Positions 3,411 to 48,450 of a stretch of 58,409 nt of DNA are shown one piece after another; the stretch's first letter is position 1; each line of letters begins with the position of its first letter. The position numbers were made by a program, and so were the translations under genes. The notes beneath the pieces were generated by a model. That model saw only the letters and a list, made by a program, of their open reading frames with translations. It did no database searches and was not told where the DNA came from. The DNA comes from Bacteroidota bacterium. GTDB lineage: Bacteria; Bacteroidota; Bacteroidia; Chitinophagales; Chitinophagaceae. The stretch lies in the NCBI GenBank assembly GCA_947461125.1, contig CANHHX010000006.1, forward strand, positions 1-58,409, written 5' to 3'.

Positions 3411-3422
3411 AAAATATTTCAA

Positions 3423-4073: not shown

Positions 4074-4101
4074 AATAATTATTAAAAATAAAATTAAACT
4101 T

Positions 4102-4731: not shown

Positions 4732-4743
4732 AAACATAATTCA

Positions 4744-4792
4744 ATATAAAAGTAAAATAGGGTATCATGTATACCCTATTTTACTTTTATAT
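4744..4792. terminator. 22-bp perfect hairpin between ompA-like gene and PRTase module
   Basis: Bases 4744-4765 and 4771-4792 are perfect reverse complements separated by the five bases CATGT. The core is GGGTAT/ATACCC, with an A-rich 5' arm and a T-rich 3' arm, so it has terminator character on both strands. It begins 12 nt after the OmpA-like stop codon and ends 23 nt before the PRTase start. The 3' arm also contains TACTTTTA (4782-4789), close to the -7 consensus, so a promoter for the next module may be embedded in it. Whether it stops, attenuates or only insulates transcription cannot be told from sequence. Confidence 0.7.
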
Positions 4793-4815
4793 AGTCATAG
4801 AAAGGGATTTTTATT

Positions 4816-8519: not shown

Positions 8520-8523
8520 TTGC

Positions 8524-9546: not shown

Positions 9547-9585
9547 ATTTAAAAATATTATTTAAATTGTTGAAAATTAATTCAC

Positions 9586-17675: not shown

Positions 17676-17811
17676 AGAAGTTGATTTTATTATTTAAGGT
17701 AATTATTCTTATGTATAGTTCTTATTATTTTATTTCCACCAATGGATCTTTATTTAAAAATCCAATAGATTGTATAAAATAATGTCTTTTGCATAGTTGC
17801 TGTTTACTCAG

Positions 17812-18762
17812 TTATACGCCAGCTTTTTTTAGTACTTCTAATGTTTTTTTAAGTCCGGTTTTGGCAACCGTTAGCAAATCTTCTTTATGATAATTTGGAT
17901 TATACATTTCTAGAGAAATAAATCCTTTATAACCAATGTCTTTTAAATCCTTAAAAATTGAATCTAGAGGTAAAATGCCATCACCTGGATATACACGGTG
18001 TTCATCTCGTAGGTCGTTAAATGTAGGCGAGGCGGGTGCATCATTAAATTGAAATATGGCAATGGCGCTCCCTTGTAGCATTTTTAATCCATCAAACCCG
18101 CCATCACTAATATACATATGATATACATCAGGAATAACCATGGCATTTGGATGATTTGCGTCCATGGCAATACCCGCTGCCTGTCCTAAAGTTTTTATGG
18201 TGAAATACTTTACAAAAACAAGCGCTGGTTTAATGTTAAACTCCTTGATGCCAATTTCTATTATGTCTTTGTATCTGTCTGCAACCCATTTTTGATTATA
18301 ATTTGGAGAAAGTTCATTGGGTATTGTTTGAATATGCTCGGCACCAATATCATGTGCCATGCGCATACGGCGTCTTGTTTCTGGCAATGATTTTATAAAT
18401 AATTCCATGGTGTCTGGAATCGCATTCCATAGTCCTATTACACTCGGCACTTTAAGCCCAAGCTTTTTTATTTGTAACCCTAGCTCTTTTAAATTCCCGC
18501 CATTTTTTTCATATTCTTCTAGTTCACCATCCCAGGGTTCTATGCCGTCATAACCTGCTTTGGCTGCAATGTTTATTTTTTCAACAAGTGATGCAGGCCT
18601 AATGGTTGCTGTATCTAAACAAATTGGCCATGGGCTTGCTCCATTTTGAAATCTTTTTTCATTTTTTTCCGCTTTAACGGATGCTGACAAACTCGAAGCA
18701 GGTATGACGCTAGCCAATAGGCCAATGGATGAACTTAATCCAATAAAACTTCTTCTTTTCAT
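17812..18762 (-). CDS. Tat-exported sugar phosphate isomerase/epimerase-like TIM barrel
   Basis: 316 residues. The N-terminus MKRRSFIGLSSSIGLL is a twin-arginine signal, so the folded protein is probably sent to the periplasm. The barrel shows AGYDGIEPWDGEL near residue 90, a histidine/glutamate pattern in IPDVYHMYISDGG, and YKGFISLEMYNP near the end, where metal-binding acidic residues sit in xylose-isomerase-like barrels. The substrate is unknown, likely a sugar or keto-sugar. It lies 8 nt downstream of the SGNH remnant in the sulfatase group. Confidence 0.82.
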   Translation of the reverse strand: MKRRSFIGLSSSIGLLASVIPASSLSASVKAEKNEKRFQNGASPWPICLDTATIRPASLVEKINIAAKAGYDGIEPWDGELEEYEKNGGNLKELGLQIKKLGLKVPSVIGLWNAIPDTMELFIKSLPETRRRMRMAHDIGAEHIQTIPNELSPNYNQKWVADRYKDIIEIGIKEFNIKPALVFVKYFTIKTLGQAAGIAMDANHPNAMVIPDVYHMYISDGGFDGLKMLQGSAIAIFQFNDAPASPTFNDLRDEHRVYPGDGILPLDSIFKDLKDIGYKGFISLEMYNPNYHKEDLLTVAKTGLKKTLEVLKKAGV

Positions 18763-18770
18763 ACAATCGA

Positions 18771-19064
18771 TTATTTTAGTAAACCAATTTTATTACGAAT
18801 TAAATGGTAGTAAGCATTTGCATATTGCATCATCCCTATATCGTTAGGGTGTGTTCCATCAAGTGCACTCTCGGTATCAAAACCAATTTGACGTGCAGTA
18901 AGCTCGTAAATATCCTTGATGCCTTCTTTGCCGCTGTATCCTTCTTTCCATCCTCTGCCATCAATACATTGCTCTTTCATTTGAGTAGGATCCATCCATT
19001 TAATTTGACTGTTTTGCCCGTATGCAAAGTTTGTGAAGAGAAAGAGTGCTAGAATATGTTTCAT
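18771..19064 (-). pseudogene. gutted SGNH hydrolase remnant (in-frame internal deletion)
   Basis: 97 residues: an intact signal peptide (KHILALFLFTNFAYGQ), about 25 residues resembling the start of Bacteroidota GDSL hydrolases with a GxDLY domain (KWMDP, DGRGWKEGY), then directly the C-terminal catalytic block DGTHPNDIGMMQYANAYY. The Asp-His dyad is kept, but the GDS serine block, the oxyanion blocks and the whole middle of a usually 200-350-residue protein are absent. The frame is undisturbed, so this looks like an in-frame deletion or a minimised derivative. An 8-bp direct repeat CCTTCTTT (18922 and 18940) lies within the join region. It sits between the sulfatase and the isomerase-like gene. 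Confidence 0.65.
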
Positions 19065-19068
19065 GGCA

Positions 19069-20523
19069 TTAATTTTTAGTTGCTTTTATTTTTTCAAGCT
19101 CCTCGGTTAGTGCACGTACAATTTCCGGGTGTTTAGCAAACACATTCTTTTGTTCTGAAGGATCTTTTTTTAGATTAAATAGTTGAACTTCGGGAAAATT
19201 AATTTTTAGCGCTTGATTTTCGGTTGGCGCACTCCATCCCCCGGAACCTCTGCAAATAGCTAATTTCCAATCTCCTTTTCTAATGGCAAAATAACCATCT
19301 ATGGAGTGATGAACAGTACTGGTTCTTTGGTAATTGTTTTTTTGGGATGATGTTAATAAAGGCAATAAACTGTAACCATCCTGAGTCGTACTATTTTGCA
19401 AAGGCATACCAAGTATATCGGAGCAGGTTGCCATAAAATCTGTGAGACAAATTGTGGTATTGTTAATGCTGTTTGCTTTTACATTAACAGGCCACTTTAC
19501 AATAAAGGGGATACGGTGTCCACCCTCGTAAATATCTGCTTTGGTTCCTCTAAATCCACCACTTGGGTCATGTCCTTTTTCGCGCAATTCTTTAAAGTTA
19601 GCACTGGGTGAACATCCATTATCACTGGTAAAAACAATCATGGTGTTTTTATCCAAGTTTTTATCTTTTAGGTACTGAAGCAGTTGCCCAACTTTTTCAT
19701 CTGTCATTTCAACAAAATCGCCATAGGCATTAGTGTCTGTTTTTCCTGTTCGAGTATTGGAAGTAAGTATGGGTGTGTGTGGTGAAGCAAGTGCTAAGTA
19801 TAAAAAAAATGGGTCTTTTTGCTTGGATGCTTTTTCAATGTATTGAATAGACTTGCTTACAAAAGTGTCTAGCACATCTTGATGTTTAAAATCGTTTCCA
19901 ATAGGCCCTGCTCTCCAAAATCCTTGCCCACCTTGTTCTTGAATGCTGTCTATGCGGGTAGCTGTAATTTTCTTACCATCAATATAAACATAGGGTGGAA
20001 TATCCAGCGACGCTGTAATGCCAAAAAAATAATCAAAGCCTAGTTGGGTAGGGCCTCCGTTAATAGGTTTTGTAAAATCAATTTCTCCGTTTTTTTGTTT
20101 GGCCCAATCTAAACCTAAATGCCATTTGCCAATACATGCTGTTTGGTATCCATTATTATTTAGCAATTGTGCTACTGTTAATTGATCTGGCGTAATTAAA
20201 GGTTTGTCATAACTCCACAATACGCCACTTTTTAAACTCGTTCGCCAAGCATACCGCCCTGTTAGAATTCCATATCTGGTAGGCGTACATACCGACGAAT
20301 TAGAATGCGCATCTGTAAATATCATGCCTTCTTTTGCTAACGCATCAATCCATGGAGTCGAAATTTTTGACTTGGTATTGTAAGCACTAACATCGCCATA
20401 ACCAAGATCGTCGGTTAGAATATAAATGATATTGGGTTTTTGCCCGGAAGCAATGATTGATAGGGTCAAAAATGACAATATTGTAACCGCCCTAAATATA
20501 GGAGTTGATTTGTTATTAGGCAT
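19069..20523 (-). CDS. exported S1-family sulfatase
   Basis: 484 residues with a signal peptide (AVTILSFLTLSIIASGQ core). The N-terminal strand NIIYILTDDLGYGD supplies the paired aspartates for calcium. The sulfatase signature SVCTPTRYGILTGR has C79, to be converted to formylglycine by a maturase not encoded here. Later come GKWHLG, FTSDNGCSPS for the metal site, and PFIVKWP. It would desulfate a polysaccharide or sulfated sugar in the periplasm. The SGNH remnant starts 4 nt after its stop, and the fucosidase and rhamnosidase genes nearby fit a sulfated, deoxyhexose-rich glycan as substrate; that link is inferred. Confidence 0.92.
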   Translation of the reverse strand: MPNNKSTPIFRAVTILSFLTLSIIASGQKPNIIYILTDDLGYGDVSAYNTKSKISTPWIDALAKEGMIFTDAHSNSSVCTPTRYGILTGRYAWRTSLKSGVLWSYDKPLITPDQLTVAQLLNNNGYQTACIGKWHLGLDWAKQKNGEIDFTKPINGGPTQLGFDYFFGITASLDIPPYVYIDGKKITATRIDSIQEQGGQGFWRAGPIGNDFKHQDVLDTFVSKSIQYIEKASKQKDPFFLYLALASPHTPILTSNTRTGKTDTNAYGDFVEMTDEKVGQLLQYLKDKNLDKNTMIVFTSDNGCSPSANFKELREKGHDPSGGFRGTKADIYEGGHRIPFIVKWPVNVKANSINNTTICLTDFMATCSDILGMPLQNSTTQDGYSLLPLLTSSQKNNYQRTSTVHHSIDGYFAIRKGDWKLAICRGSGGWSAPTENQALKINFPEVQLFNLKKDPSEQKNVFAKHPEIVRALTEELEKIKATKN

Positions 20524-23148: not shown

Positions 23149-25884
23149 ATGCTAGGTGTAGTAGTTCTCCTTCCTCTTTTTGTAAAGTCTATGGTACTCG
23201 GTGTGCCTGATTATAAAACGCAAGACACTGTTTATAAAAAGGGTATCACGCAATCTTCACTAGAAGCAAATTTTATCAATCCGCCAACAAATGCTAAGCC
23301 TTATGTGTGGTGGCACTGGATGGGATCCAACTTTTCAAAATCGGGTATCACCAAAGACTTGGAAGCCATGAAATCGATGGGTATTGGCGGTGCTACTATA
23401 TTTAATATTGCATCTGCGGTGCAGGAATCGCATGTCCCAACATTAAACAACCCATATCCTACGCAAACGTACCGGAGTGAAGCATATTGGGATGCTATTA
23501 AACATGCTGCTGCCGAAGCACAACGCTTAGGACTTGAAATTGGGTTACACAATACAGCTGGTTATTCTACAACAGGCGGGCCTTGGATTACCGAAGAAAA
23601 AGCCATGCAGCGTCTTGTTTGGACAAAAGTAGAAGTGGCAGGTGGAACTAAAATAGAATTAGAATTAGCACAAGGGGTGCCGCCCATTTTTGAAGGCTGG
23701 GGTTCGCCTAAAACAAAAGCTACATTTTACAAAGACATTGCCGTTTTAGCAATGCCTGTTGGTACTATTACGAATCAAAAAGATGTTATTGATATCAGTG
23801 CTTTTATGCAGCCAAATGGAAAATTAAGTTGGCAGGCGCCGCAAGGTAAATGGATAATTTACAGAATGGGTCATGCTCCTACGATGGCAAACCCACACCC
23901 GCTTCCAGATGATATTATAGGCAAGTCTTTGGAAGTAGACAAAATGAGTTTGGAACATAACGAATTTCATTGGAACCAGGTTTTAGAGCCATTAAAAAAA
24001 CATGTTGGTAATTATATTGGTAAATCATTCAAGCATATTTTAATTGATAGTTATGAAGCGGACATGCAAAATTGGACGCCTACATTTAGACAAGAATTTA
24101 AAAACCGTAAAGGGTATGATCCATTAGCCTGGTTATTAACTTTTGACCGCGATAAAAATGGTCTAGGCCCCATTATTAATAGTAAAAATGAAACAGACAA
24201 TTTTACGCAAGATTTTAATGAAGTAGTAGATCAGCTGTTTATAGACAATGGTTGGAAAGTGGGTAAGCGGATGGTGCAAGATGCAGGATTGACCTTGCAG
24301 TTTGAACCTTATACTGGGCCTTTTAGTATTTTAAGAGGTACAACAGTGGCAGATCTTCCCATGGGTGAATTTTGGACACATATACCGGGTATTAATATTC
24401 AAATTCCTGCGGCTGCACATGCAGCAGGTAAAAAAATTATTGGAGCAGAGGCCTTTACGGGATGGCCTATGAATAGTCAATACACAGAAGATCCTGAATT
24501 TTTAAAACCGACTTCATCATGGGCTTTTGCTACGGGAGTTAACCGTTTAATACTGCACACATGGGTACATCAACCTTTTGATGATAAGTATCAGCCAGCT
24601 ATGAGTATGGGATGGTGGGGAACACATTTTGGAAGACATCAAACCTGGTTTGAACCCGGAAAAGCTTTTTTACAATACCTTTCTAGGGCCCAAGTAATGT
24701 TACAATATGGAGAGCCCGTTTCAGACATGCTTTGTGTTGGGGAAGCTCAAAATTTACAAGAGGATGCAATTGATCCATACGATTTCATGCATCAGAATAT
24801 AACGCTTGTAGATGGAAAAATTAAATTACCATCCGGAAGAATGTATAGTGCTATTAGAGTTTCAAATTCTGTTAAAGCTACCCCAGCAATACTTGAAAAA
24901 ATAAGATTATTGCAAACAGGTAATAGGGTCATAGCACCAGATTTTATTGTGGAAAAAGCAGATACTACGGAAGCGATAAAAATTTTACACAGAAAAGGAA
25001 TACATGGAGATGTCTATTTTGTTACCAACTTACATAAGAAGCCACAAGATATTCGTATTTCATTTAGACAAAAAGGACTACAGCCCGAATTGTGGCAAGC
25101 AGAAGACGGAAGTCAAATCGATGCAAACATTTGGGAAGAAAAAGGCGAAAGAACTACGGTTGATATTCACTTAAATGATTTTCAAACCGTTTTTGTGGTT
25201 TTCAAAAAGCCAATAACTTCCGGAAAGCATGCCATTAAAAAAATGGATGCTACTGTTTATTTTTCGGATAGCACTAAAAAGTTGTTGGAGCCTGATTTTA
25301 TTAATAGCAAATTAGTGACTGCTAAGTGGCAGGTTAGTATGGCACCTAAGTTAGAGCAACCTTTTGTTATTCATTTAGACACACTTGCAAATTTTGGCGC
25401 ACACCCCGATAAGCGTATTCGTTATTTTGCTGGCACAGCTACATACCGCACATCAATTGATATTCCTGCATTCGATAAAACTGGTATAAAATTGCTTCTT
25501 AATCTAGGAAGCGTTCACGATATTGTTTCAGTTACCATAAATGGAATTGATATGGGGGTTGTTTGGTACCCGCCTTATCAACTCGACATTAGTAAAGCAG
25601 TAAAGCCTGGAAATAATAAAGTAGAGATTGCGGTTACCAATAACTGGGCTAATAAATTAATTGGTGATGAACAGGAGCCCGAAGATATGGAGTGGGGGAC
25701 AGATAGAGGAGAATTTGGTAGGGCTATAAAAGCATATCCTGATTGGTTTATTCAAAATAAACCAAGACCTTCTAGTAACCGGAAAACATTTTCTATTTGG
25801 TATTACTACCGAAAAGGAGATGCAACAAAGCCCGCTGGTTTATTAGGCCCCGTTCAACTCATCTATGAGCGCAAACAAATTTAA
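23149..25884 (+). CDS. GH106-type alpha-L-rhamnosidase-like glycoside hydrolase
   Basis: 911 residues with a hydrophobic N-terminal signal (LGVVVLLPLFVKSMVLG). The catalytic barrel begins with NPPTNAKPYVWWHWMGSN and SGITKDLEAMKSMGIGGATIF, diagnostic of GH106. Acidic residues in IDSYEADMQNWTP and IGAEAFTGWP are candidate catalytic residues. A C-terminal beta-sandwich (about 760-890), with FAGTATYRTS and a Gly/Asp-rich strand set, is the galactose-binding-like domain usual in this family. It would release L-rhamnose or a related sugar from pectic or bacterial glycans. Its stop overlaps the convergent peptidase stop within TTAA. Confidence 0.85.
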   Translation: MLGVVVLLPLFVKSMVLGVPDYKTQDTVYKKGITQSSLEANFINPPTNAKPYVWWHWMGSNFSKSGITKDLEAMKSMGIGGATIFNIASAVQESHVPTLNNPYPTQTYRSEAYWDAIKHAAAEAQRLGLEIGLHNTAGYSTTGGPWITEEKAMQRLVWTKVEVAGGTKIELELAQGVPPIFEGWGSPKTKATFYKDIAVLAMPVGTITNQKDVIDISAFMQPNGKLSWQAPQGKWIIYRMGHAPTMANPHPLPDDIIGKSLEVDKMSLEHNEFHWNQVLEPLKKHVGNYIGKSFKHILIDSYEADMQNWTPTFRQEFKNRKGYDPLAWLLTFDRDKNGLGPIINSKNETDNFTQDFNEVVDQLFIDNGWKVGKRMVQDAGLTLQFEPYTGPFSILRGTTVADLPMGEFWTHIPGINIQIPAAAHAAGKKIIGAEAFTGWPMNSQYTEDPEFLKPTSSWAFATGVNRLILHTWVHQPFDDKYQPAMSMGWWGTHFGRHQTWFEPGKAFLQYLSRAQVMLQYGEPVSDMLCVGEAQNLQEDAIDPYDFMHQNITLVDGKIKLPSGRMYSAIRVSNSVKATPAILEKIRLLQTGNRVIAPDFIVEKADTTEAIKILHRKGIHGDVYFVTNLHKKPQDIRISFRQKGLQPELWQAEDGSQIDANIWEEKGERTTVDIHLNDFQTVFVVFKKPITSGKHAIKKMDATVYFSDSTKKLLEPDFINSKLVTAKWQVSMAPKLEQPFVIHLDTLANFGAHPDKRIRYFAGTATYRTSIDIPAFDKTGIKLLLNLGSVHDIVSVTINGIDMGVVWYPPYQLDISKAVKPGNNKVEIAVTNNWANKLIGDEQEPEDMEWGTDRGEFGRAIKAYPDWFIQNKPRPSSNRKTFSIWYYYRKGDATKPAGLLGPVQLIYERKQI

Positions 25885-39117: not shown

Positions 39118-39233
39118 TGTTAAGTAATTATAACTTGACTTAAATGTAAAAACAAGTTCGCATAATTATTGAAATAAAAACTACCTATGTTTTGTTATTT
39201 TCTTACATTTAATAAACCATCAAAAGCTTGTAC

Positions 39234-39956
39234 ATGAAGCACCTGACAAAGCTATCGGCGATCCTTTTTGCTATTTTGCTCGTAAATACAACACGGGTGT
39301 TGGCGAGCAAAATAGCATTTAAGGATACGCTTAAAGTAAATAAAGTACCTCCGTTTGAAATGGATGGGGCTGGGAGCCATGCAAGCTGGAATAATACGAG
39401 TTGGATAAACCTCATTCAGCTTGATTCAAGTAGTTTGGATTATCCTTCAAAATTTAAAATATTGTATGCCGATAGTGGAGTGTATGTTTTGTTTTCGGGG
39501 CTTGATAAAAAAATAACCTCGCCGTATAAAAATGATTTTGAGGATTTATTTAGAGCCGATGTTTTTGAAGTTTTTTTTCATCCCGAGCCAAGCACGCCCA
39601 TATATTTAGAGTATGAAATAAATGCCTACAACGCCGAGCTCGTGCTTCTTGTGCCGCATTTAAACAAAAAAACATTTGGCTGGGCACCTTGGAAATATAC
39701 TGGCACCAAAAAAGTAATTAAAAAAGTACAGGTACACAAGCAAAACAACGAAATGTACAAATGGACTGCCGAACTATACTTTCCATTTAAATTATTTATA
39801 CCCCTACAAAATTTAGATGTAAAAAAAGGCACTTGTTGGAATGCCAATTTTTATAGACTTGATTACGACGACACAAAAATGGTTAAATGGGCCTGGTCAC
39901 CCATTGTAAAAAGTTTTCATGAATTTGAAAAGTACGGTGTTATCCAGTTCAACTAA
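39234..39956 (+). CDS. CBM9-like secreted carbohydrate-binding protein
   Basis: About 240 residues from ATG 39234 (an upstream TTG is less likely). A signal peptide (KLSAILFAILLVNTTRVLAS) precedes a single beta-sandwich with family-9-like features: FKILYADSGVYVLFSGLDK, FRADVFEVFFHPEP, YLEYEINAYNAELVL and FPFKLFIPL. Such proteins bind sugar chain ends or sit beside glycoside hydrolases. The DNA for the signal peptide forms a 66-nt imperfect palindrome. It is divergent from the GH95 gene (116-nt gap) and may share its regulation. Confidence 0.8.
   Translation: MKHLTKLSAILFAILLVNTTRVLASKIAFKDTLKVNKVPPFEMDGAGSHASWNNTSWINLIQLDSSSLDYPSKFKILYADSGVYVLFSGLDKKITSPYKNDFEDLFRADVFEVFFHPEPSTPIYLEYEINAYNAELVLLVPHLNKKTFGWAPWKYTGTKKVIKKVQVHKQNNEMYKWTAELYFPFKLFIPLQNLDVKKGTCWNANFYRLDYDDTKMVKWAWSPIVKSFHEFEKYGVIQFN
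39261..39326. repeat. large palindrome within the CBM9-like signal peptide coding region
   Basis: The 14-mer at 39269-39282 (TGCTATTTTGCTCG) is perfectly complementary to 39304-39317. Outside it ATCCTT (39261-39266) pairs with AAGGAT (39321-39326) across a small internal loop. At the apex CAACAC (39289-39294) faces GTGTTG (39297-39302). The fold covers codons 10-31 of the gene. Confidence 0.85.
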
Positions 39957-39963
39957 ATAGGAT

Positions 39964-41037
39964 TTAGTTTTTTGGCTCCCGCTTATGCCAGTAGGATGCT
40001 AATATAGATCCCGTGATATTCATAAACGGCCCAAACACAGCAGGCGCGAGCCCCATAGTGGCAGCCTTCCCTAATTGTTGAGCAAGGCCGGAAGCCAATC
40101 CGCCATTTTGCATACCTACTTCGATAGCAATGGTTCTACAATCTTGTTCTGGCATTTTGAATAGTCGACCACTCCAATAGCCTAGCAAATACCCTAGTGT
40201 ATTATGAATGACTACAATGCCAATAAGTATGGGACCAATGTTGAGCAGGTTATCTCTGCCAGACGCAGTAATAATGGTAATAATCATGGTAATACCGGCC
40301 ATTGATACAATGGGCATAGCACTATCCATCCATTTAGATTTTCCTTTTAAAAATTGATTAAAAATAAGTCCTGCCCCAATAGGTAAAAGAATCATTTTAT
40401 TAATATCCCACATCATTTTTGTAACATCAATTTCAACCATTTCTCCGGCAAATAGTTTCATTAACAATGGGGTTACAAACGGTGCAATTAATGTTGTGAT
40501 AGAAGTTATGGTTATAGACAGTGCAAGGTTTGCTTTTGCTAAATAAGACATCACATTGGAAGCTAGTCCGCTAGGCGAACATCCAATTAAAATAATACCA
40601 GCGGCAATTTCGGGTGGCAATTTCGATATAGAAGCAAGTAAAAAACCTAGTGTAGGCATAATAGCAAACTGACTCACTACGCCAATGATAACACCTTTTG
40701 GCGTTTGAACAACCAGTGCAAAGTCTTTCATGCTCATAGAAGTACCCATACCAAACATGATCAATTGTATCAGCGGAACAATCAGTCCTGTTAGTTTATA
40801 CCCGCCCCAAACAATAAATAATTGTGGTTGAAATAATGATAGTGATACTGCCGAAAATATGACGAGCGTAAAACTAAATCCTTTGTAGTTATTGGTATAC
40901 TTTACGGCAATACTTAATAATAAAAATGCAGCAGCAACACTAAATCCTACATAATTTGTTAGCGCCAAAGCATACAATATGCCTGATGTAATAAATAATA
41001 GGACAGAAGTAGATAATAATATTTTGTACTGATTCAT
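39964..41037 (-). CDS. BASS-family sodium-coupled organic anion transporter
   Basis: 357 residues with about ten membrane helices. The family signature GIILIGCSPSGLASNVMSYL lies near residue 150 and the matching second-half crossover near EVGMQNGGLASGLAQQLG. BASS proteins import bile acids, pyruvate, pantoate or 2-keto acids with sodium. The gene follows the RraA-like gene by 22 nt and is last in the leftward group, so it may carry the product of the exported enzymes across the inner membrane. It is convergent with the CBM9-like gene (7-nt gap). Confidence 0.88.
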   Translation of the reverse strand: MNQYKILLSTSVLLFITSGILYALALTNYVGFSVAAAFLLLSIAVKYTNNYKGFSFTLVIFSAVSLSLFQPQLFIVWGGYKLTGLIVPLIQLIMFGMGTSMSMKDFALVVQTPKGVIIGVVSQFAIMPTLGFLLASISKLPPEIAAGIILIGCSPSGLASNVMSYLAKANLALSITITSITTLIAPFVTPLLMKLFAGEMVEIDVTKMMWDINKMILLPIGAGLIFNQFLKGKSKWMDSAMPIVSMAGITMIITIITASGRDNLLNIGPILIGIVVIHNTLGYLLGYWSGRLFKMPEQDCRTIAIEVGMQNGGLASGLAQQLGKAATMGLAPAVFGPFMNITGSILASYWHKREPKN

Positions 41038-41059
41038 GGTTGCAGCTTTTAAACAATAA

Positions 41060-41977
41060 TTACCAGGTTCTTTTTTCTAAAAATTTTTCGAGTAAAGCTT
41101 TTGTGATTTGAGGTTCGTTGGGGTGCGCCGCTATCCAGTTTAAAAATGCGGTTTTAATGGTTTCATTCCACTGGCTATCTATTTGTCCTGCTGTAAAAGT
41201 GCCCGCCTTTAAAACATCTTTTGAAAACCTGTCTCTAACAGCAATAAATTCGGCGGTAGCTACTACTTTTTCTGCCATGTGCGCAGGAATAAATAAAACA
41301 CCTTCTCTTTCTGAGAGTACGAGGTCGCCAGGTAGCACAACGGCTGCACCAATTCTGATGGGGCTGTTAAGTCCAATAAGTACTACTTCTTCTAAAAAGG
41401 AAGGATGAAAATCCCTAACGTACGCATTAAAGCCTTTGATTTGCGCCAGCCCCGATAAATCTCTTGCGGCGCCATCAAAAATAACACCATTGCCTGTTTT
41501 ATTAAAAATAGACGCACCTAAGTTATCGCCAATGAGTGTGCCTTGTGCAATTTTTCCAAATGCTTCGGCAACATATACGTCTCCTTTTTGAAGTACTTGA
41601 ATGGGCCATGCGTTGGTATTGCCGGTGCGACCTTCTGTTTTTCCACGCTCTTTAATGAGCGCTTCTATATCGGGCCTTGAAGGGCTATAACGCGCGGTAA
41701 CAACCCTGCCTACAACAGGAACATTGTCATGTACCATTTTCCAATTGCCTTCGAATTGATTTTTATAACCTTCGTTGTATAGTACTTGCCATGCTTCTTC
41801 GATTCCAATTTTTTTGGCTCTTTCTATAATGGCATCAGGTATTTTAGGTCTACCATCTTCAAATCTTTCACCCTTCCACTCTGATGTTAGGTATATAAGT
41901 TCCGAAGCAGGAAACTGTTGCGCATTTGATATATAAAAGCAAGCAATAAGTAATAATAAGAGACCCGTTTTTTTCAT
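41060..41977 (-). CDS. exported RraA-like aldolase/decarboxylase
   Basis: 305 residues with a Sec signal peptide (KTGLLLLLIACFYISNAQ). The RraA fold shows GDNLGASIFNKTGNGVIFDG, then AARDLSGL, where the Arg-Asp pair binds substrate and metal in 4-hydroxy-4-methyl-2-oxoglutarate aldolases, and VLPGDLVLSEREGVLFIP. Active relatives cleave or decarboxylate 2-keto acids. Cytoplasmic RraA that inhibits RNase E lacks a signal, so the exported location is notable. It lies 5 nt downstream of the SelA-like gene and 22 nt upstream of the transporter gene. Confidence 0.88.
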   Translation of the reverse strand: MKKTGLLLLLIACFYISNAQQFPASELIYLTSEWKGERFEDGRPKIPDAIIERAKKIGIEEAWQVLYNEGYKNQFEGNWKMVHDNVPVVGRVVTARYSPSRPDIEALIKERGKTEGRTGNTNAWPIQVLQKGDVYVAEAFGKIAQGTLIGDNLGASIFNKTGNGVIFDGAARDLSGLAQIKGFNAYVRDFHPSFLEEVVLIGLNSPIRIGAAVVLPGDLVLSEREGVLFIPAHMAEKVVATAEFIAVRDRFSKDVLKAGTFTAGQIDSQWNETIKTAFLNWIAAHPNEPQITKALLEKFLEKRTW

Positions 41978-41982
41978 ACAAT

Positions 41983-43206
41983 TTATTTTACAGCAGCTTC
42001 TAAAACTTCTTTTAGTCGTTTAGCAACAATTACATCTTCACCTTCTTGTAATGACCAAGCAGTCATGCCAATATTATCTTTTCCGCCCACCGATTCGATA
42101 GATGGTGATCCATTACGAAGGTCTAAACGAAGTTGTTCGCCGGTTTTACCAATTTTACTGTAGTCGAAACTGATATTTAAAGTAGGGGTAACATTGCCAA
42201 GTACTGGCGTAGAAATTTTTGTAGTAACACCAGGAACCGAATCGGCAGCTGCTTGAATTTTTTTAATTCTTTCTAAAAAAACAAGGGCTTCTGCATCATG
42301 GTCAATTTTTACAAATTCTTCTACGGCAACCATCATACCTAAAATTTCTTCTTTGTTTACTTTCATACCTCTACCAATGGTTTCACCACGTGGAGGCATG
42401 GATAATCTTGCTGCTTTAATAAGGTCTTTTTTACCCATCAGTAAACCCGCACTTTGTGGGCCACGCAGTGCTTTACCGCCAGAAATAGCAACAAAATCAA
42501 AACCCATTTCATTGAAGCGCCATAAGTTACTTACAGGCGGAACGTCTGCGGCGATATCAATAGTGGTAGGGATACCATATTTTTTTCCAATAGCTACCCA
42601 CTCTTCGTGCTGAATTTGTCCTTTATCCGATTGCACATGCAAAAAGTGCATCGCTGCCGTGTTTGGATTGATGGCTTTAATTAATTCATCGAGGGTTTCT
42701 ACCATTACAATTTTAACACCCGTGTTGGTTAATGCCTGATTGTATCCAATGGCGTGTGATTTTTGACAAATCACTTCTGTTTTCATGCCCGTGCCTTCGA
42801 GTTTTGGAAGCTGCTTTACTTTTACAGGATCCATGCCTGTTAATATACCTGCCATACCAAGTGTTAATGCAGCAAATGCACCACTTGTTACAACAACCGC
42901 TTCGGCTCTTGTAATTTGAGCAAGTCTTTCACCTACTTTATCTTGTAAGTCGTCTAGCATGCAAAATTTATGCGAAGCTTGTCTGATAGCTTCTACTGTT
43001 GCAGGGCGCATGAGTGTTGCAGTCATAGCGGTATAAGTACCAGCCGCATTAATAAAGGTGCGCACTCCTAGTTCACTAAATAAGTCGCGTTTTTTAGCAA
43101 CTTCGAGTGGGGTTGATTTTGGTGCCGCATTGGCAAGTCCACTAGCAATTGCACCACCAGCAAGCGGTGAAATTGAAATATATTTGATAAGGTCTCTACG
43201 TTTCAT
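41983..43206 (-). CDS. Tat-exported SelA-like PLP-dependent enzyme
   Basis: 407 residues with a twin-arginine signal (MKRRDLIKYISISPLAGGA). The fold-type-I body carries RTFINAAGTYTAM near residue 50, VTSGAFAALTLGMAG near 108, and the lysine for PLP in AISGGKALRGPQSAG near 245. It matches the SelA-related group that includes D-glucosaminate-6-phosphate ammonia-lyase, rather than true selenocysteine synthase. Tat export makes sense because PLP is inserted before transport. RidA-type genes upstream would hydrolyse the enamine or imine such a lyase releases. The substrate is unknown. Confidence 0.85.
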   Translation of the reverse strand: MKRRDLIKYISISPLAGGAIASGLANAAPKSTPLEVAKKRDLFSELGVRTFINAAGTYTAMTATLMRPATVEAIRQASHKFCMLDDLQDKVGERLAQITRAEAVVVTSGAFAALTLGMAGILTGMDPVKVKQLPKLEGTGMKTEVICQKSHAIGYNQALTNTGVKIVMVETLDELIKAINPNTAAMHFLHVQSDKGQIQHEEWVAIGKKYGIPTTIDIAADVPPVSNLWRFNEMGFDFVAISGGKALRGPQSAGLLMGKKDLIKAARLSMPPRGETIGRGMKVNKEEILGMMVAVEEFVKIDHDAEALVFLERIKKIQAAADSVPGVTTKISTPVLGNVTPTLNISFDYSKIGKTGEQLRLDLRNGSPSIESVGGKDNIGMTAWSLQEGEDVIVAKRLKEVLEAAVK

Positions 43207-43221
43207 AGTTTTTTGTTTTAA

Positions 43222-43695
43222 TTAGTTTGCAATTGCGATACAATCCATTTCTACAAGTGAATTACCCGGTACGCCACCATAAGTAGCTACTGTTGTTCTT
43301 ACAGGCGGTTTGGCGCCAAAGCGGCCTTTGTATACTTCGTTCATTTGCTTGTAATCATTTAAATCGGCGAGGTATACATTTACTTTTAAAACTTTTTCCA
43401 TAGAGGAACCAGCTTTAATCAGTTCTTTTTCCAATTCTTTTAATACATGATCGGTGTGTGCTTTAATGTCACCTTCAAAGTGTGCGCCTTTCCCGGCAAC
43501 AAAAACCATTCCCCCAAATTTTGTAGAACCTGAAAAAAGTGGAACGTCCTGATCGTACTGTACATTAAATACTTCTTTTTGTGCACTGTCATCACTGTTA
43601 TTGCTAGCAGCATTTGCAGCTATTGTTGTGCCTGTAACACCCAGTAGGCCTGCAAACATTTTTCTGAAAATGGAGCGGCGGTTGTTTGTTTTCAT
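43222..43695 (-). CDS. exported RidA-family protein
   Basis: 157 residues. The N-terminus NRRSIFRKMFAGLLGVTG is a Tat-type signal. The RidA domain (about 35-157) includes GMVFVAGKGAH, the substrate-carboxylate arginine in PPVRTTVATYG, and the glutamate in LVEMDCIAIAN, so it should be an active 2-aminoacrylate/imine deaminase. It lies 15 nt upstream of the SelA-like gene and 36 nt downstream of the lactonase-RidA fusion on the same strand. Placement suggests it clears the enamine produced by the PLP enzyme. Confidence 0.88.
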   Translation of the reverse strand: MKTNNRRSIFRKMFAGLLGVTGTTIAANAASNNSDDSAQKEVFNVQYDQDVPLFSGSTKFGGMVFVAGKGAHFEGDIKAHTDHVLKELEKELIKAGSSMEKVLKVNVYLADLNDYKQMNEVYKGRFGAKPPVRTTVATYGGVPGNSLVEMDCIAIAN

Positions 43696-43731
43696 AGCGG
43701 TTTATTTTGTTTTTAAAATGTATTAGATTAT

Positions 43732-45297
43732 TTATTTGAGTTCAACAATCATTTCTATTTCTACCGAAATATTATTAGGTAATGCTGCCACACCAAGAGC
43801 AGATCTTGCATGCTTTCCTCTTTCTCCAAAAATTTCAACCATTAAATTAGAAAATCCATTCATCACCTGAGGTTGCTGCGTAAAATTGGGCTCCGAGTTT
43901 ACAAGGCCTAATACTTTTACAATGCGTTTTACTTTATTTAAATCACCGATATAGGCTTTTAAAGTAGAGATCATTGAAATGCCTGTGAGTCTTGCTGCTA
44001 GTTGGCCTTCTTCGATGGTTACATCTTTACCTAAATGACCAAACATTTGACCACCGCCTGGTTTATCTGGTCCATGACCCGATAAATATACCAGGTTACC
44101 TACCTGCACTTGTTTTACATAATTGGCAATAGGAGGTACAACAGGAATTAATTGAATGTTTAATTGTTTGATGCGTTCTTCGGGATTAACTTCCATGGGG
44201 TCGTTACTAAATACCAAACAAACCGGACCACTTACCGCCATGTCCTGATTGGTGTTGGTTAATTTTCCGGTGATGTCATCAAAAGAAAATATTTGCACTT
44301 TATCTTCGGTTTGACTCGCTACAAAAACAAAATTTCCATTGGGTGAAAAACTAAAATTTCGTGGCCTCTGCGCTACTGGCTGATGGTACATTTTGGTAAG
44401 CTTGCCATCGGCTTCAATTTTAAATACCGTTAACTGCTCACTGCTTACGCGGTTGGTGGTAATAAGCCATTTACCACTAGGTGAAATATGAATATCGCCA
44501 CTTCCTTTTGTAGCAGTTGTTTTTGCAGTATCTGCTGTAATGGTTTGTATTTTTTCTAGTGCATTAGCACGTATTGAAAACACGTCAACAGTGCCCGATA
44601 ACTCATTGATTAAATAACCGTGCGTACCACTATTATTAAAAACAAAATGCCTTGGACCGTTGCCGGGTGTGATGGATACAGTGGTGTACTTTTCATCGAG
44701 TAAACCATCTGCATAAATTTTATGCATGTAAATTTTATCGGCACCTAAATCTGTTACCAATAACTGATTATGATCAGGTGTTAACACAACATTGTGTGCA
44801 TGCGAAGCTTCTTGTCTTGCTTTATGAATGCTTGATCCGCTGTAATTTATTTCTTGTGCAATTGGGAGCAGTGCTCCATTATCTAAGGTTTTAAAAACAC
44901 TAACACTACCAGAGGTATAATTAGCCGTATACACGGTTTTACTTTCGGGCCTAGATACAATAAAGCAAGGGGCTGCACCTTTGATAGGCTCCTGATTTAG
45001 TTTTTGAAATTGATTGCTTGCATCTAATTGATAAGCACTTACAAAAGAAGCGTCTTTGCCGCCTTCCGTTACAGCATACATTGATTTTCCATTATTTGCT
45101 AATGTCAAATAAGAAGCATTGGCATTTTCTTTTGTATACAACAACTTAGGCTTCCCGGTAACTGCATTAACGGCATATACTTCAATACCAGGGTTTCCTT
45201 TTTTAGTATAGGAACCCACAATGAGTTGGTGCTGGGCAGTATCAGGCGCGAAAAAATGGAGGATATTACTAACAAGTAGTGTAGCAATCATGTTCAT
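43732..45297 (-). CDS. exported lactonase-RidA fusion protein
   Basis: 521 residues. After a hydrophobic start (ATLLVSNILHFFAP), residues about 20-360 form a seven-bladed propeller of the YbhE/6-phosphogluconolactonase type (LIVGSYTKKGNPGIEVY, SHAHNVVLTPD, GNGPRHFVF, PRNFSFSPNG). Residues about 375-521 are a RidA domain with LVYLSGHGPDKPGGG, the key arginine in GKHARSALGVAALP and VEIEMIVEL. Both halves look intact, so it could hydrolyse a lactone and an imine in one protein. It is the first gene of the leftward five-gene group, divergent from the amidohydrolase (131-nt gap). Confidence 0.88.
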   Translation of the reverse strand: MNMIATLLVSNILHFFAPDTAQHQLIVGSYTKKGNPGIEVYAVNAVTGKPKLLYTKENANASYLTLANNGKSMYAVTEGGKDASFVSAYQLDASNQFQKLNQEPIKGAAPCFIVSRPESKTVYTANYTSGSVSVFKTLDNGALLPIAQEINYSGSSIHKARQEASHAHNVVLTPDHNQLLVTDLGADKIYMHKIYADGLLDEKYTTVSITPGNGPRHFVFNNSGTHGYLINELSGTVDVFSIRANALEKIQTITADTAKTTATKGSGDIHISPSGKWLITTNRVSSEQLTVFKIEADGKLTKMYHQPVAQRPRNFSFSPNGNFVFVASQTEDKVQIFSFDDITGKLTNTNQDMAVSGPVCLVFSNDPMEVNPEERIKQLNIQLIPVVPPIANYVKQVQVGNLVYLSGHGPDKPGGGQMFGHLGKDVTIEEGQLAARLTGISMISTLKAYIGDLNKVKRIVKVLGLVNSEPNFTQQPQVMNGFSNLMVEIFGERGKHARSALGVAALPNNISVEIEMIVELK

Positions 45298-45428
45298 GGC
45301 AATCGGTTATAATTTGAATGAGAAATTAATCAAATAATGTCAAAAAAGGATTTCTATTCACCTATAATTTATGCACTTTCCTCGTTTTTTTATAAATTAC
45401 ATACAATCCTCAATTAAACTTTCAATGT

Positions 45429-46679
45429 ATGAATAAGAACTTACTCATAATTACCTTGTTTGTGGCCCTATCGCTTCAGTTAAAAGCTCAGACACCTGCT
45501 AGTTTTGATGTACTTGTTAAGGGTGGTCATGTAATTGATCCAAAAAACGGCATTGATGCTGTAATGGACATTGCCATTAAAGCGGGTAAAATTTTTAAAG
45601 TTGGAAAAAACTTGCCAGCGTCTGATGCCAAGCAAGTAGTGGATGCTACTGGATTAAAAGTAGTACCAGGTATTATTGATATGCATGCGCACGTTTTTGC
45701 AGGTACGCAGCCGGATCATTATTTAAGTGATGGGTTAAGTGCGCTCATGCCAGATGGTTATACCTTTAGAGTAGGTGTTACCACGGTGGTAGATTGTGGT
45801 GGTGCCGGTTGGAGAAACTTTTCGACGTTTAAAAAAAATGTAATTGATATTTCACAAACAAGGGTATTGTCTTTTTTAAACATTGTAGGTGAGGGGATGC
45901 GCGGTGGGAATTACGAGCAGGACATTGCAGATATGAATCCAAAACTTGCAGCAAACACCGCTAAACAGTACAAAGATTATATCGTAGGTTTTAAACTAGC
46001 GCATTTTAATGGTGCCGATTGGACGCCTACAACGCGCGCCGTAGAAGCGGGCAAACTCGCTGAACTACCTGTTATTATTGACTTTGGCGGCTCTCAACCT
46101 AATTTATCAATTCAAGAATTATTTTTTAAGCACCTTCGACCAGGTGATATTTATACCCATACCTATGCAGCATTAAATGGCGCTAGAGAAGAAATTGTAG
46201 ACGCCAATAACACCTTAAAACCTTTTGTGTTAGAAGCACAAAAAAGAGGTATCATTTTTGATGTTGGTTATGGCGGAGCTAGTTTTAATTACACGCAAGC
46301 GATACCTGCATTAAAAGCAGGATTGTTTCCTAGTACTATTAGTACCGATTTGCATACCGGTAGCATGAATAGTTCTATGAAGGATCAAATCAGTGTAATG
46401 TCTAAATTTATGAATTTAGGCATGCCTCTTTTTGAAGTGATTAAAGCTAGTACATGGAAGCCTGCACAAGTTATTAATAGAACCAATCTTGGTCATTTAA
46501 CAGAAGGTGCAGAAGCAGACATCGCTATTTTAAATATCAGAAAAGGGAACTTTGGTTTCTACGATAAAACAGGTTACAAAGTAAATGGCACCGAAAAATT
46601 TGAATGCGAGCTCACTATCAAAGGTGGCAAGGTTGTGTACGATTTAAATGGTTTGGCAAATCCTATTTACGTAAAGTAG
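45429..46679 (+). CDS. exported amidohydrolase/deacetylase (EF_0837-like)
   Basis: 416 residues with a signal peptide (KNLLIITLFVALSLQLKAQ). Metal ligands are in PGIIDMHAHVF (near residue 85). FKLAHFNGADW holds the lysine usually carbamylated, and YTHTYAALNG and STDLHTG give histidine and aspartate. It belongs to the dihydroorotase-like branch often found beside SelA-related PLP enzymes. It would remove an acyl group from an N-acylated substrate before the PLP step. It is divergent from the lactonase-RidA gene, so both may use one control region. Its stop overlaps the convergent gene by 17 nt. Confidence 0.87.
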   Translation: MNKNLLIITLFVALSLQLKAQTPASFDVLVKGGHVIDPKNGIDAVMDIAIKAGKIFKVGKNLPASDAKQVVDATGLKVVPGIIDMHAHVFAGTQPDHYLSDGLSALMPDGYTFRVGVTTVVDCGGAGWRNFSTFKKNVIDISQTRVLSFLNIVGEGMRGGNYEQDIADMNPKLAANTAKQYKDYIVGFKLAHFNGADWTPTTRAVEAGKLAELPVIIDFGGSQPNLSIQELFFKHLRPGDIYTHTYAALNGAREEIVDANNTLKPFVLEAQKRGIIFDVGYGGASFNYTQAIPALKAGLFPSTISTDLHTGSMNSSMKDQISVMSKFMNLGMPLFEVIKASTWKPAQVINRTNLGHLTEGAEADIAILNIRKGNFGFYDKTGYKVNGTEKFECELTIKGGKVVYDLNGLANPIYVK

Positions 46680-48450
46680 CCGCTGCATTTAATTTGGCTT
46701 CGGCCTCTTTTTGTAACTGCATTTCTTTTCTTTTTAAGAGGCGTAGCCTTTGGCGTACAATGGTTACAGAGGTTTTGGAGATGGAGTCGGAGTGATTGCC
46801 AAAATTTTGTCTGATATAGGTAAGTATACTTGCAATATCTCTATCCGGTAGTTGCGAAAATTTAGGCATCGCTCCATGAAATGGTTGACCGTTAATTTTA
46901 ATGGGCCCTTCAAGTCCTTTTAGTAAAACACCAATGAGGGTATCCTTGTTGCCATTCACCCAATCGGTTTTTGCAATCGTTGGAAACCTAATACCATCCC
47001 CTTGTCCATTTTGTTGATGACAAACGCGGCAGTTTATTTGGTAGAGTTTTTCGCCACCAAGTACCACTTTATCTTTTTCTAAATTATCTTTTATAATGTC
47101 TGGATTTTTTACATTGGTTCTGTTTTCTCTAGCTTTCATTTGCGCTAGATTTTTTTCAGAAAAAGATTCTTTATTTCCTTTGTATTGAATTTTCCAAATC
47201 TTTCCTTTTTTAGAATCGGAAATATACAATGAACCATCGGGCCCTTGTGCAAGTCCCATTGGGCGGTGCTTACTATCACTGGTATTTACAAGTGTATCTG
47301 TCCCCGTAAATCCATCTGCAAATACTTCCCATTTTTGAGTCTTACCATTTACAAATGGAACAAAGGCTACAATGTAACCTGCTTGCGGATAGGGTGCACG
47401 AATGGTAGATCCATGAAACGCAATAAACGCACCATTTTTATAGCGCGCAGGAAACTGATCGCCGGTATAAAATAGTAAATCGTTAGGTGCATAGTGTCCC
47501 GGAAAACCTACAATGGGTGTTTCAATACTCTTATCTGTGTTTTCTAGTTTGCCATCGCCACCATACTCTGGGTTCACCATAACCTTGCCCTTCATTTGAT
47601 CAAAATAATAATAAGGCCAACCTGCATTGGCACCTGGCTTTAATTTATAAAACGCTTCGGAAGGTAAAACAGCGCTCTGCCATTCGTTGTAAAATTGTGG
47701 CCAGCTACTAGAAAGTCCATCTCTGCCGTGGCCTACACAATACAAAGTGCTATCCTGATTGTTCCATGTCATGGCAACAAGGCTTCGTAAACCTGTTGCA
47801 ACTTTTATACCATCGGTGGTTCTAAATTGATTGAGTTTGTTTTCATCAAACATCCAAACGCCTGCATTAGAATCTAAAATAGGGCAGGGCTTCATGCCTG
47901 GTGAACCTGGCAATCTATTTTCTTCTTGGCAAGCATCGGAAGGAGCTCCAAAAGGAACAAAAATATGCCCCTTGCCATCAAAGGCTAGTGGCTTACCATC
48001 ATGCTCGCGTGGTTGTCCGCTGTCAATTACAATAAACTCTGCCTTACTAGAAGGCACCATTTCACCCTGCTTTAATTTATAACGGTACACCAGCATTTCT
48101 GAACTGGTATAGAGGTATCCATTATGAATGCGCATACCAGTAGCGTAAGCCCCTTCGCTTGCGATGGGTCCAAAATTTTTAATGATATCGGCGCGGCCAT
48201 CATTGTTTTCGTCTCTTAAAACATAGTTCATGCCGCCCTCAATGGGCTTATTGGCTTTTACATAAATATCTCCATTGTTATTGACCGCTAAATGCCTAGC
48301 CCTACCCGGCAAACTATCTACCACCACAACGGCTTCAAAACCATCAGGTAAAAACAAGCCCCCATTTTTTTCGCGTAAGCAACTTGTAAAAACCATTGCT
48401 ATTAAGCAAACAGCCATTACATAGCGGGGTTGTAGTTGGGTTAGCGCCAT
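46663..48450 (-). CDS. sorbosone dehydrogenase-like/cytochrome c lipoprotein
   Basis: 595 residues with a lipobox (VFTSC). Residues about 30-430 form a beta-propeller of the soluble glucose/sorbosone dehydrogenase type (RARHLAVNNNGDIYV, DSKHRPMGLAQGPDGSLYIS). A cytochrome c domain follows with CRVCHQQNGQGDG (haem near residue 475) and the methionine ligand probably in GAMPKFS. The last 35 residues are a charged helical tail (RQRLRLLKRKEMQLQKEAEA). It probably oxidises a sugar or aldehyde in the periplasm with PQQ and passes electrons to its haem. TATATTTA (48471-48464, leftward) may be its -7 element. Confidence 0.88.
   Translation of the reverse strand: MALTQLQPRYVMAVCLIAMVFTSCLREKNGGLFLPDGFEAVVVVDSLPGRARHLAVNNNGDIYVKANKPIEGGMNYVLRDENNDGRADIIKNFGPIASEGAYATGMRIHNGYLYTSSEMLVYRYKLKQGEMVPSSKAEFIVIDSGQPREHDGKPLAFDGKGHIFVPFGAPSDACQEENRLPGSPGMKPCPILDSNAGVWMFDENKLNQFRTTDGIKVATGLRSLVAMTWNNQDSTLYCVGHGRDGLSSSWPQFYNEWQSAVLPSEAFYKLKPGANAGWPYYYFDQMKGKVMVNPEYGGDGKLENTDKSIETPIVGFPGHYAPNDLLFYTGDQFPARYKNGAFIAFHGSTIRAPYPQAGYIVAFVPFVNGKTQKWEVFADGFTGTDTLVNTSDSKHRPMGLAQGPDGSLYISDSKKGKIWKIQYKGNKESFSEKNLAQMKARENRTNVKNPDIIKDNLEKDKVVLGGEKLYQINCRVCHQQNGQGDGIRFPTIAKTDWVNGNKDTLIGVLLKGLEGPIKINGQPFHGAMPKFSQLPDRDIASILTYIRQNFGNHSDSISKTSVTIVRQRLRLLKRKEMQLQKEAEAKLNAAATLRK

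Follow-up and report, generated by a model that had tools for sequence, protein, structure and literature searches.

The window, the whole stretch of DNA that we analysed, comprises 58,409 nt of contig CANHHX010000006.1 from a Bacteroidota bacterium (GCA_947461125.1), and the gene cluster under study lies at 39964-46679. Five genes run leftward on the minus strand: a BASS-family importer with an SBF/BASS domain (39964..41037; PF01758, 136 bits), an RraA-like protein with a Sec-like signal (41060..41977; PF03737, 56.5 bits), a DgaE/SelA-related PLP enzyme (Aminotran_5/SelA) with a Tat-like signal at about residues 1-28 (41983..43206; TIGR01437, 168 bits), a RidA that also has a Tat-like signal (43222..43695; PF01042, Ribonuc_L-PSP, 70 bits), and a 7-bladed lactonase with a second RidA-type (YjgF/RidA) domain and a weak N-terminal signal (43732..45297; PF10282, 313 bits; PF14588, 64 bits). 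An EF_0837/PRK09237-type amidohydrolase, a putative deacetylase with a Sec-like signal (45429..46679; NF006689, 438 bits), is read divergently from the plus strand. The ORF list bears out the tight packing that the initial annotation had described, with gaps of 22, 5, 15 and 36 nt between the leftward genes, as well as the 131 nt between these and the amidohydrolase. On its nearest named models the importer is below cut-off (TIGR00841, BASS, 243/326 bits; NF047939, PanS, 242/400 bits). The conserved neighbourhood extends past these borders on both sides, to a GSDH-type PQQ sugar dehydrogenase-like propeller fused to cytochrome c (46663..48450, minus strand; PF07995, PF00034) and to a CBM9-like protein with a hydrophobic N-terminus (39228..39956, plus strand; Pfam CBM9_2, 31 bits). 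GH95 and GH29 genes adjoin the cluster, and TatC, GH20 and KDPG aldolase are all present in the genome itself.

The core of the set is well conserved. Around the PLP enzyme in 51 Bacteroidota loci with full flanks, the amidohydrolase is nearby in 46, and so is RidA (42 through ORF clustering and 4 more through tblastn). The GSDH-type dehydrogenase occurs in 36/51 loci, the lactonase in 26, a CBM9-like neighbour in 21 and SusC-like proteins, identified by eye, in 20; the RidA-fused form makes up 14 of 32 lactonases. BASS (18/51) and RraA (12/51) are missing from most loci and are accessory members, so the earlier idea that the product is cleaved and then imported is not universal. A Granulicella plasmid carries the same set, with signal-like starts as read by eye, and the gene set recurs in two phyla, Bacteroidota and Acidobacteriota. 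None of 395 genomes reached the TIGR01437 cut-off in a phylum-wide profile search, and the 8 that matched at E <=1e-15 are not a frequency estimate.

Export signals were judged by eye and with a purpose-made rule. The PLP enzyme starts with MKRRDLIKYISISPLAGGAIASGLANA and RidA with MKTNNRRSIFRKMFAGLLGVTGTTIAANA, both Tat-like, and such calls fell on 81/92 PLP enzymes and 62/67 RidAs, versus 13/780 other ORFs of the same loci. From this motif, and with TatC in the genome, Tat export of both is predicted. The amidohydrolase and the RraA-like protein have Sec-like N-termini, as called by a permissive rule that also gave Sec-like calls on 349/780 of the other ORFs and false positives in two small cytoplasmic-looking control clusters (sugar epimerase-like and UDP-sugar dehydrogenase-like, named by eye; 4/4 each). 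Better Sec evidence comes from the alignment, in which the amidohydrolase has an extra hydrophobic N-terminus compared with five non-exported relatives. The start of the dehydrogenase-cytochrome c protein resembles a lipoprotein signal by eye. The lactonase-RidA begins with MNMIATLLVSNILHFFAPDTAQ, which is hydrophobic without positive charge and uncalled by the rule (17/32 lactonases were called), and its export is uncertain. The statement that every enzyme is exported thus holds, as a prediction, for the PLP enzyme, RidA, the amidohydrolase and the RraA-like protein, and is in doubt for the lactonase-RidA. It is very improbable that these are chance neighbours or misread signals and that the enzymes are cytoplasmic: related trios without signals exist and the Sec rule errs as described, but no Tat-like motif was seen in the non-exported relatives, the model of the PLP enzyme has pLDDT <50 over residues 1-35, TatC is present, and the set recurs in two phyla. 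A location outside the inner membrane is well supported by these predictions.

The PLP enzyme is related to the sugar-acid lyases and yet distinct from them. Its best NCBIfam match is the DgaE-type model TIGR01437, on which an Enterococcus enzyme scores 589 bits, and membership of the D-glucosaminate-6-phosphate lyase family fails, as both cut-offs are missed (135/600 and 168/385 bits). The nearest fold to its model is nevertheless that of the Salmonella lyase DGL (7lc0; rank 1, TMq 0.79), with which it shares the PLP lysine and, in most sequences, a basic residue at the Arg226 position. The lysine is K245, which aligns with K213 of the 7lc0 chain by our own count, that is Lys-217 in PMC9529869. 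It is kept in 92/92 homologs and the RidA arginine in 67/67, so the absence of active-site residues, which the initial annotation had named as grounds for rejecting its reading, was not observed. What the exported enzymes have lost are the phosphate arginines: positions 301/332/346 are T, V and W in the window enzyme, and Arg is absent there in 27/27 and 23/23 Bacteroidota rows with letters at these positions in two alignments. The His162/163 pair is not conserved in exported rows either; the window enzyme has a single His opposite His162 (phmmer), and many homologs have Asn. In the passages of PMC9529869 drawn on here, DGL acts on a phosphorylated substrate taken up by a PTS, and its H163A mutant sets the enamine free. 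Loss of the proton-donor pair was rejected as the cause of the pairing with RidA, since Rhizobium, Thalassospira, Sagittula, Palleronia, Aminobacter and Phyllobacterium keep both the pair and a RidA. In Mesorhizobium the pair is absent, and the stretch examined holds no annotated RidA.

The missing His pair could also be read as a sign that the PLP enzyme is no lyase but an oxygen-dependent oxidase related to Cap15, with RidA hydrolysing an imine that arises from oxidation. By fold, Cap15 (8t7j) comes second (E 9.7e-28), and it tops the PDB sequence matches (4.9e-31 versus 3.1e-30 for the lyase), and according to the passages of PMC11794154 drawn on here it makes a quinonoid intermediate and participates in oxidative chemistry. 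Cap15, however, keeps the three phosphate-position arginines that the exported enzymes have lost, and the tree places it with the Salmonella lyase and Firmicute DgaE (100/98), outside the exported clade. We regard the oxidase as improbable.

The amidohydrolase is above the NF006689 cut-off (438 versus 371 bits) and below that of TIGR03583, EF_0837 proper (210/432 bits). The residues concerned are H86, H88, K189, D218, H244 and D307, set against a metal-ligand scheme that we take to be HxH, Lys, His, His, Asp. H86 and H88 are found in 80/81 homologs (one gap), K189 in 80/81, and H244 and D307 in 81/81, but the first of the two later histidines is replaced in 81/81 (Asp in 77, Glu in 4). Its chemistry may differ, because five non-exported relatives have His at that site. 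In RidA, below the TIGR00004 cut-off at 65/106 bits, R133 is presumably the carboxylate-binding arginine together with E149, which is also kept in 67/67 homologs. The RraA-like protein has D-X20-R-D (Asp151, Arg172-Asp173), which we take as the RraA/HMG-CHA aldolase motif; R-D is found in 25/25 homologs, and the first Asp in 18/25, with S or Q in 7/25. The product of 46663-48450 is PQQ sugar dehydrogenase-like and may bind PQQ. It passes PF07995 (33 bits, cut-off 25), the top 21 entries in a Foldseek search of its model against the PDB are all either PQQ sugar dehydrogenases or structures whose title reads glucose dehydrogenase (the best a fungal AA12), and H150, presumably the active-site His of such propellers, is kept in 50/50 together with C474, C477 and H478 (CxxCH at 474-478).

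The sequences thus establish a conserved set with predicted export signals on the PLP enzyme, RidA, amidohydrolase, RraA-like protein and dehydrogenase, with its main catalytic residues kept, and with a putative inner-membrane importer encoded alongside. We suggest, with about as much doubt as confidence, that the locus encodes an amino-sugar-acid degradation route in a periplasmic form that does without phosphate. In an order that we infer, the dehydrogenase-cytochrome c protein would oxidise the sugar at C1 to a lactone, the lactonase would open it to the aldonic acid, and the amidohydrolase would take off the N-acyl group. The Tat-exported PLP enzyme would then eliminate the C3 hydroxyl of a 2-amino-aldonic acid (D-glucosaminate-like), and the resulting enamine/imine would be hydrolysed to a 2-keto acid and ammonia by the exported RidA, which would be required because a cytoplasmic RidA has no access to it. 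The RraA-like protein is a candidate for splitting the 2-keto-3-deoxy acid, and the 2-keto acid or pyruvate could enter through BASS. With no ATP in the periplasm, a substrate free of phosphate is to be expected, in keeping with the absence of the three arginines that bind phosphate in the Salmonella enzyme. The deacylation, deamination and keto-acid order of the initial annotation is plausible. More tentatively, and with rather low expectation for the whole, this could be a full ATP-free amino-sugar catabolism in the periplasm of Bacteroidota and Acidobacteriota, from oxidation, lactone opening and deacylation to PLP elimination, enamine removal by the exported RidA and keto-acid cleavage, with electrons passing straight to cytochrome c, ammonia and acyl groups released outside the inner membrane, and the 2-keto acid alone entering.

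The identity of the substrate is one that we infer, with evidence against it as well. Of the N-acyl amino acid or amino-sugar acid proposed earlier, the sugar-derived compound is now likelier, because of the adjoining dehydrogenase-cytochrome c gene, which had been left out. Both nagA and nagB are above cut-off in 13/13 cluster-bearing genomes searched; plain GlcNAc therefore needs no such route, and replacement of the normal GlcNAc route is ruled out. GH20 is weak evidence on the substrate: it adjoins the cluster in only 2 of one fetched genome set, and a BLAST with those two sequences found it beside the cluster at 0/78 loci. It is possible, if doubtful, that the module instead acts on N-acyl-D-amino acids or small peptide-like amides, which the amidohydrolase would deacylate and the PLP enzyme deaminate or subject to elimination, with RidA clearing the imine. 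Besides the presence of nagA and nagB, this would suit the ABC importers that adjoin alphaproteobacterial trios (the Sagittula ATPase is annotated for peptide transport), a haloarchaeal relative near a 'dipeptide' ABC ATPase, and the closeness of OngB, an experimentally known GlcNAc1A deacetylase, to D-aminoacylases in what we drew from PMC12017989. The frequency of dehydrogenase, lactonase, CBM9 and SusC-like neighbours, the adjoining GH95 and GH29, and a closest fold that is a sugar-acid lyase argue for the amino-sugar acid.

Such an acid is degraded by the ong pathway of oxidative chitin utilisation in Pseudoalteromonas, for which the passages of PMC9537276 drawn on here name the deacetylase OngB, the deaminase OngC, the RidA OngD and KdgK; mutants deleted for any one of ongB, ongC, ongD or kdgK could no longer grow on GlcNAc1A. 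Both systems direct an amidohydrolase-superfamily deacetylase, a PLP deaminase and a RidA at a 2-amino-aldonic acid (OngC is likened by its description), in our case putatively. OngB and OngC are, unlike the window enzymes, predicted to be cytoplasmic (PMC9537276), and OngB is a D-aminoacylase-type enzyme of subtype V with a Cys ligand (same part of PMC12017989), a different family from the window amidohydrolase. Oxidation by an LPMO and import by an SSS transporter are further differences. The ong cluster includes a KDG kinase, and no kinase was found among 19 window proteins scanned with Pfam. With another amidohydrolase family and export signals, the locus does not belong to ong, which the sources drawn on report from Gammaproteobacteria and one Betaproteobacterium.

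PLP enzymes that act outside the cytoplasm have been described before, a point that qualifies the initial annotation: BsrV is a periplasmic PLP racemase related to alanine racemase (in part of PMC7890096), and PvdN is a 'periplasmic aminotransferase' by a reference title in PMC11794154. The excerpts on these two mention no pairing with an exported RidA, titles and abstract beginnings in the literature gave no description of an exported RidA/PLP/amidohydrolase set or of a periplasmic PLP-lyase and RidA pathway, and a search there for Tat-exported PLP enzymes gave nothing useful. If our reading is true, PLP elimination and RidA clearance, usually deemed cytoplasmic, have together been transferred to the far side of the inner membrane in two phyla. 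This would provide a natural experiment on whether RidA is required in every compartment where a PLP lyase acts, and oxidised amino sugars would have an extra degradation route in phyla beyond those with the reported ong pathway.

Clusters without export signals, put forward earlier as a refuting case, do exist in Rhizobium, Aminobacter, Phyllobacterium, Sagittula, Palleronia and Thalassospira, and do not undo export here. These alphaproteobacterial trios have the same three enzyme families adjacent (EF_0837-like amidohydrolase, RidA, SelA-like enzyme) with an ABC importer, but lack the signals, keep the His pair and Arg301/332, and in the two amidohydrolase rows examined have His where the exported ones have Asp. 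The module also exists without signals, and export marks a single branch of it, which could be recognised by its Tat-like signals, the missing phosphate arginines and the change from His to Asp in the amidohydrolase. The pairing of an EF_0837-type amidohydrolase with a DgaE-type enzyme, as the initial annotation had it, is real and found in Enterococcus.

The six genes of the cluster lie where the initial annotation placed them, with the gaps of 22, 5, 15, 36 and 131 nt that it claimed. Pfam and NCBIfam assign them to a BASS transporter (39964-41037, minus strand), an RraA-like protein (41060-41977, minus), a DgaE/SelA-related PLP enzyme (41983-43206, minus), a RidA (43222-43695, minus), a lactonase with a RidA-type domain (43732-45297, minus) and an amidohydrolase (45429-46679, plus), which scores over the NF006689 cut-off of NCBIfam. 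The neighbouring gene at 46663-48450, convergent with that of the amidohydrolase and overlapping it by 17 nt, encodes a GSDH-type propeller carrying cytochrome c at its C-terminus, and a CBM9-like gene (39228-39956) adjoins the transporter gene, with GH95 and GH29 genes beyond it on the same side. The fused RidA-type domain is closer to the RidA partner of alphaproteobacterial trios than to the adjoining stand-alone RidA, and in some Bacteroidota its equivalent is encoded on its own and begins with a signal-like sequence.

The firm part of the pathway proposed below is its location, as predicted from export signals. The PLP enzyme and the RidA of the window have N-terminal twin-arginine signals, and the genome encodes TatC. 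With a custom rule (twin arginine, hydrophobic stretch and net positive start) applied to the window and 78 related loci, 81/92 PLP enzymes and 62/67 RidAs were called Tat-like, as were 13/780 other ORFs; the hypergeometric value of 5e-143 exaggerates the strength of this enrichment because the sequences are related. Ten PLP enzymes were not called by the rule, and the six that we inspected all have a twin-arginine start. Homology of the PLP enzyme to D-glucosaminate-6-phosphate lyase of Salmonella (DGL, structure 7lc0) starts at residue 41, and the model has pLDDT below 50 over residues 1-35. For Sec signals the rule was permissive: it called 349/780 other ORFs and gave false calls in two control clusters of cytoplasmic appearance, and the Sec-like calls for the amidohydrolase (80/81), RraA (25/25) and the dehydrogenase (49/50) therefore weigh less. 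Better evidence for amidohydrolase export is its hydrophobic N-terminal extension, absent in the five non-exported rows of the alignment. The claim that every enzyme carries an export signal is supported, as a prediction, for the PLP enzyme and RidA and, under the permissive rule, for the amidohydrolase and RraA, but the lactonase-RidA fusion has a weak signal only.

Within the family, 15/147 genomes have a strong homolog of the PLP enzyme (E < 1e-20), and 17 more have weak matches only, which are probably other PLP enzymes. The amidohydrolase is found near the PLP enzyme in 14 of the 15; in the fifteenth, 2.4 kb at a contig end were examined. A scan of genome contigs gave at least 573 relatives, of which the best 78 loci were analysed. 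These loci are closely related and several genera recur among them, so the neighbourhood counts from the 51 of them with both 10-kb flanks are not independent: amidohydrolase 46/51, GSDH-type dehydrogenase 36/51, any lactonase 26/51, RraA 12/51, CBM9 21/51, SusC-like 20/51 and BASS 18/51. RidA was found at 42/51 by ORF clustering and at four more by tblastn (46/51), and the same five loci (L096, L116, L126-L128) have neither amidohydrolase nor RidA. The complete six-gene set is present in the window and in nine of the best 78 loci; three loci recorded as Sediminibacterium (L051-L053) are near-identical to the window cluster. Paralogs are frequent (e.g. loci L031, L033, L037 and L039, with two or three PLP enzymes and several amidohydrolases per cluster), one PLP enzyme type being about 540 aa long with 36-40% identity to that of the window, and this suggests several substrates.

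Outside Bacteroidota we searched plasmid records, which give a partial picture. A Granulicella plasmid (Acidobacteriota) has in a row RraA, PLP enzyme, RidA, a second PLP enzyme, amidohydrolase, lactonase and an FAD/BBE oxidase-like protein, four of these assigned by Pfam. Inspection by eye shows Tat-like starts in RidA, the lactonase and the two PLP enzymes, and Sec-like starts in the amidohydrolase and RraA; no signal is visible in the BBE protein (L143:15011-16480), a possible stand-in for the PQQ dehydrogenase. The amidohydrolase, RidA and PLP enzyme occur next to ABC importers in Sagittula, Palleronia, Aminobacter and Phyllobacterium, with no visible signals, and RidA and PLP enzyme do so in Rhizobium and Thalassospira; haloarchaeal relatives likewise have no signals. 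Homologous clusters lacking export signals, which the initial annotation counted against its reading, exist in Alphaproteobacteria; the Bacteroidota and Granulicella clusters carry signals. A tree was built from 47 PLP enzymes, and a single branch in it (support 84/67; 82% of bootstrap trees) has the exported enzymes together on one side, which favours one origin without proving it. The two Granulicella enzymes group on long branches, each with a different Bacteroidota paralog.

Missing PLP or RidA active-site residues, also named as counting against the reading, do not refute it: the PLP lysine is conserved in 92/92, and Arg133 and Glu149 of RidA in 67/67 each. The aligned lysine is, by our count, residue 213 in 7lc0 chain numbering but Lys-217 in the available part of PMC9529869, with which the chain numbering agrees for His162/163 and Arg226/301/332/346. 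That part places arginines 301, 332 and 346 of DGL close to the phosphate. The window enzyme has T, V and W opposite them, none of the Bacteroidota rows with letters at those positions has Arg there (27/27 and 23/23), and this fits a neutral, non-phosphorylated substrate; the Granulicella enzymes keep 0/3 (first) and 1/3 (second). The His162/163 pair is also lost in the exported enzymes. The H163A variant of DGL sets the enamine free (same part of PMC9529869), and loss of His163 would therefore give RidA a clear role; comparison of exported and non-exported PLP enzymes did not support this loss as the cause of the RidA pairing. Although related to DGL, the window enzyme lacks DGL-defining scores, arginines and histidines, and we therefore do not class it as DGL. 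The best fold match of its model is 7lc0 (TMq 0.79), and the next distinct one is the oxygen-dependent Cap15 (8t7j).

Of the six usual metal positions of the amidohydrolase, five are kept nearly throughout. At the remaining one, 81/81 exported rows and Granulicella have Asp or Glu whereas 5/5 non-exported rows have His; Asp/Glu there is a marker of the exported branch. Ranks 1-21 for the dehydrogenase model are PQQ sugar dehydrogenases or entries titled glucose dehydrogenase, and its heme motif is present in 50/50.

Combined, the evidence suggests a pathway in which a substrate would be oxidised and its lactone opened (fold and neighbourhood), deacylated by the amidohydrolase (family), and then acted on by the PLP enzyme (fold and residues) and RidA (family and residues), which would together remove water and ammonia and yield a 2-keto acid that may be cleaved or imported (family only). 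The RraA motif is incomplete in 7/25 homologs. We infer an amino-sugar acid as substrate from the fold, the deacetylase family, the sugar dehydrogenase, the lactonase and the CBM9 and SusC-like neighbours, and from GH20 in two clusters and a PIG-L deacetylase in one. Against it, however, nagA and nagB are present in 13/13 genomes searched, GH20 seldom adjoins the cluster, and an ABC ATPase of peptide type lies next to one alphaproteobacterial relative. The proposed pathway would work like the oxidative chitin pathway of Pseudoalteromonas (ong), which has a deacetylase (OngB), a deaminase (OngC) and a RidA that is essential but has no assigned role, OngB and OngC being predicted cytoplasmic (available part of PMC9537276). 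The ong deacetylase, however, is from a different family and the ong enzymes are not exported, and the locus is therefore not an ong member. That a PLP/RidA pathway outside the cytoplasm is undescribed agrees with the literature searched by title or abstract start, outside which most subscription journals fall, where no exported PLP-RidA-amidohydrolase set was found; periplasmic PLP enzymes as such are already known, namely BsrV (excerpt of PMC7890096) and PvdN (a reference title in the accessible part of PMC11794154).

Elsewhere in the window, 2847-10566 looks by eye like a ter stress cluster: two genes for TerD-like proteins come first, and after them lie phosphoribosyltransferase-, HAD- and ATP-grasp-like genes and one for a TerC-like membrane protein. 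At 16890-20523, closely spaced genes encode a ThuA-like protein, an arylsulfatase-like protein and a TIM-barrel sugar isomerase-like protein with a Tat-like start (by eye), accompanied by a GH106 alpha-L-rhamnosidase (23149-25884).
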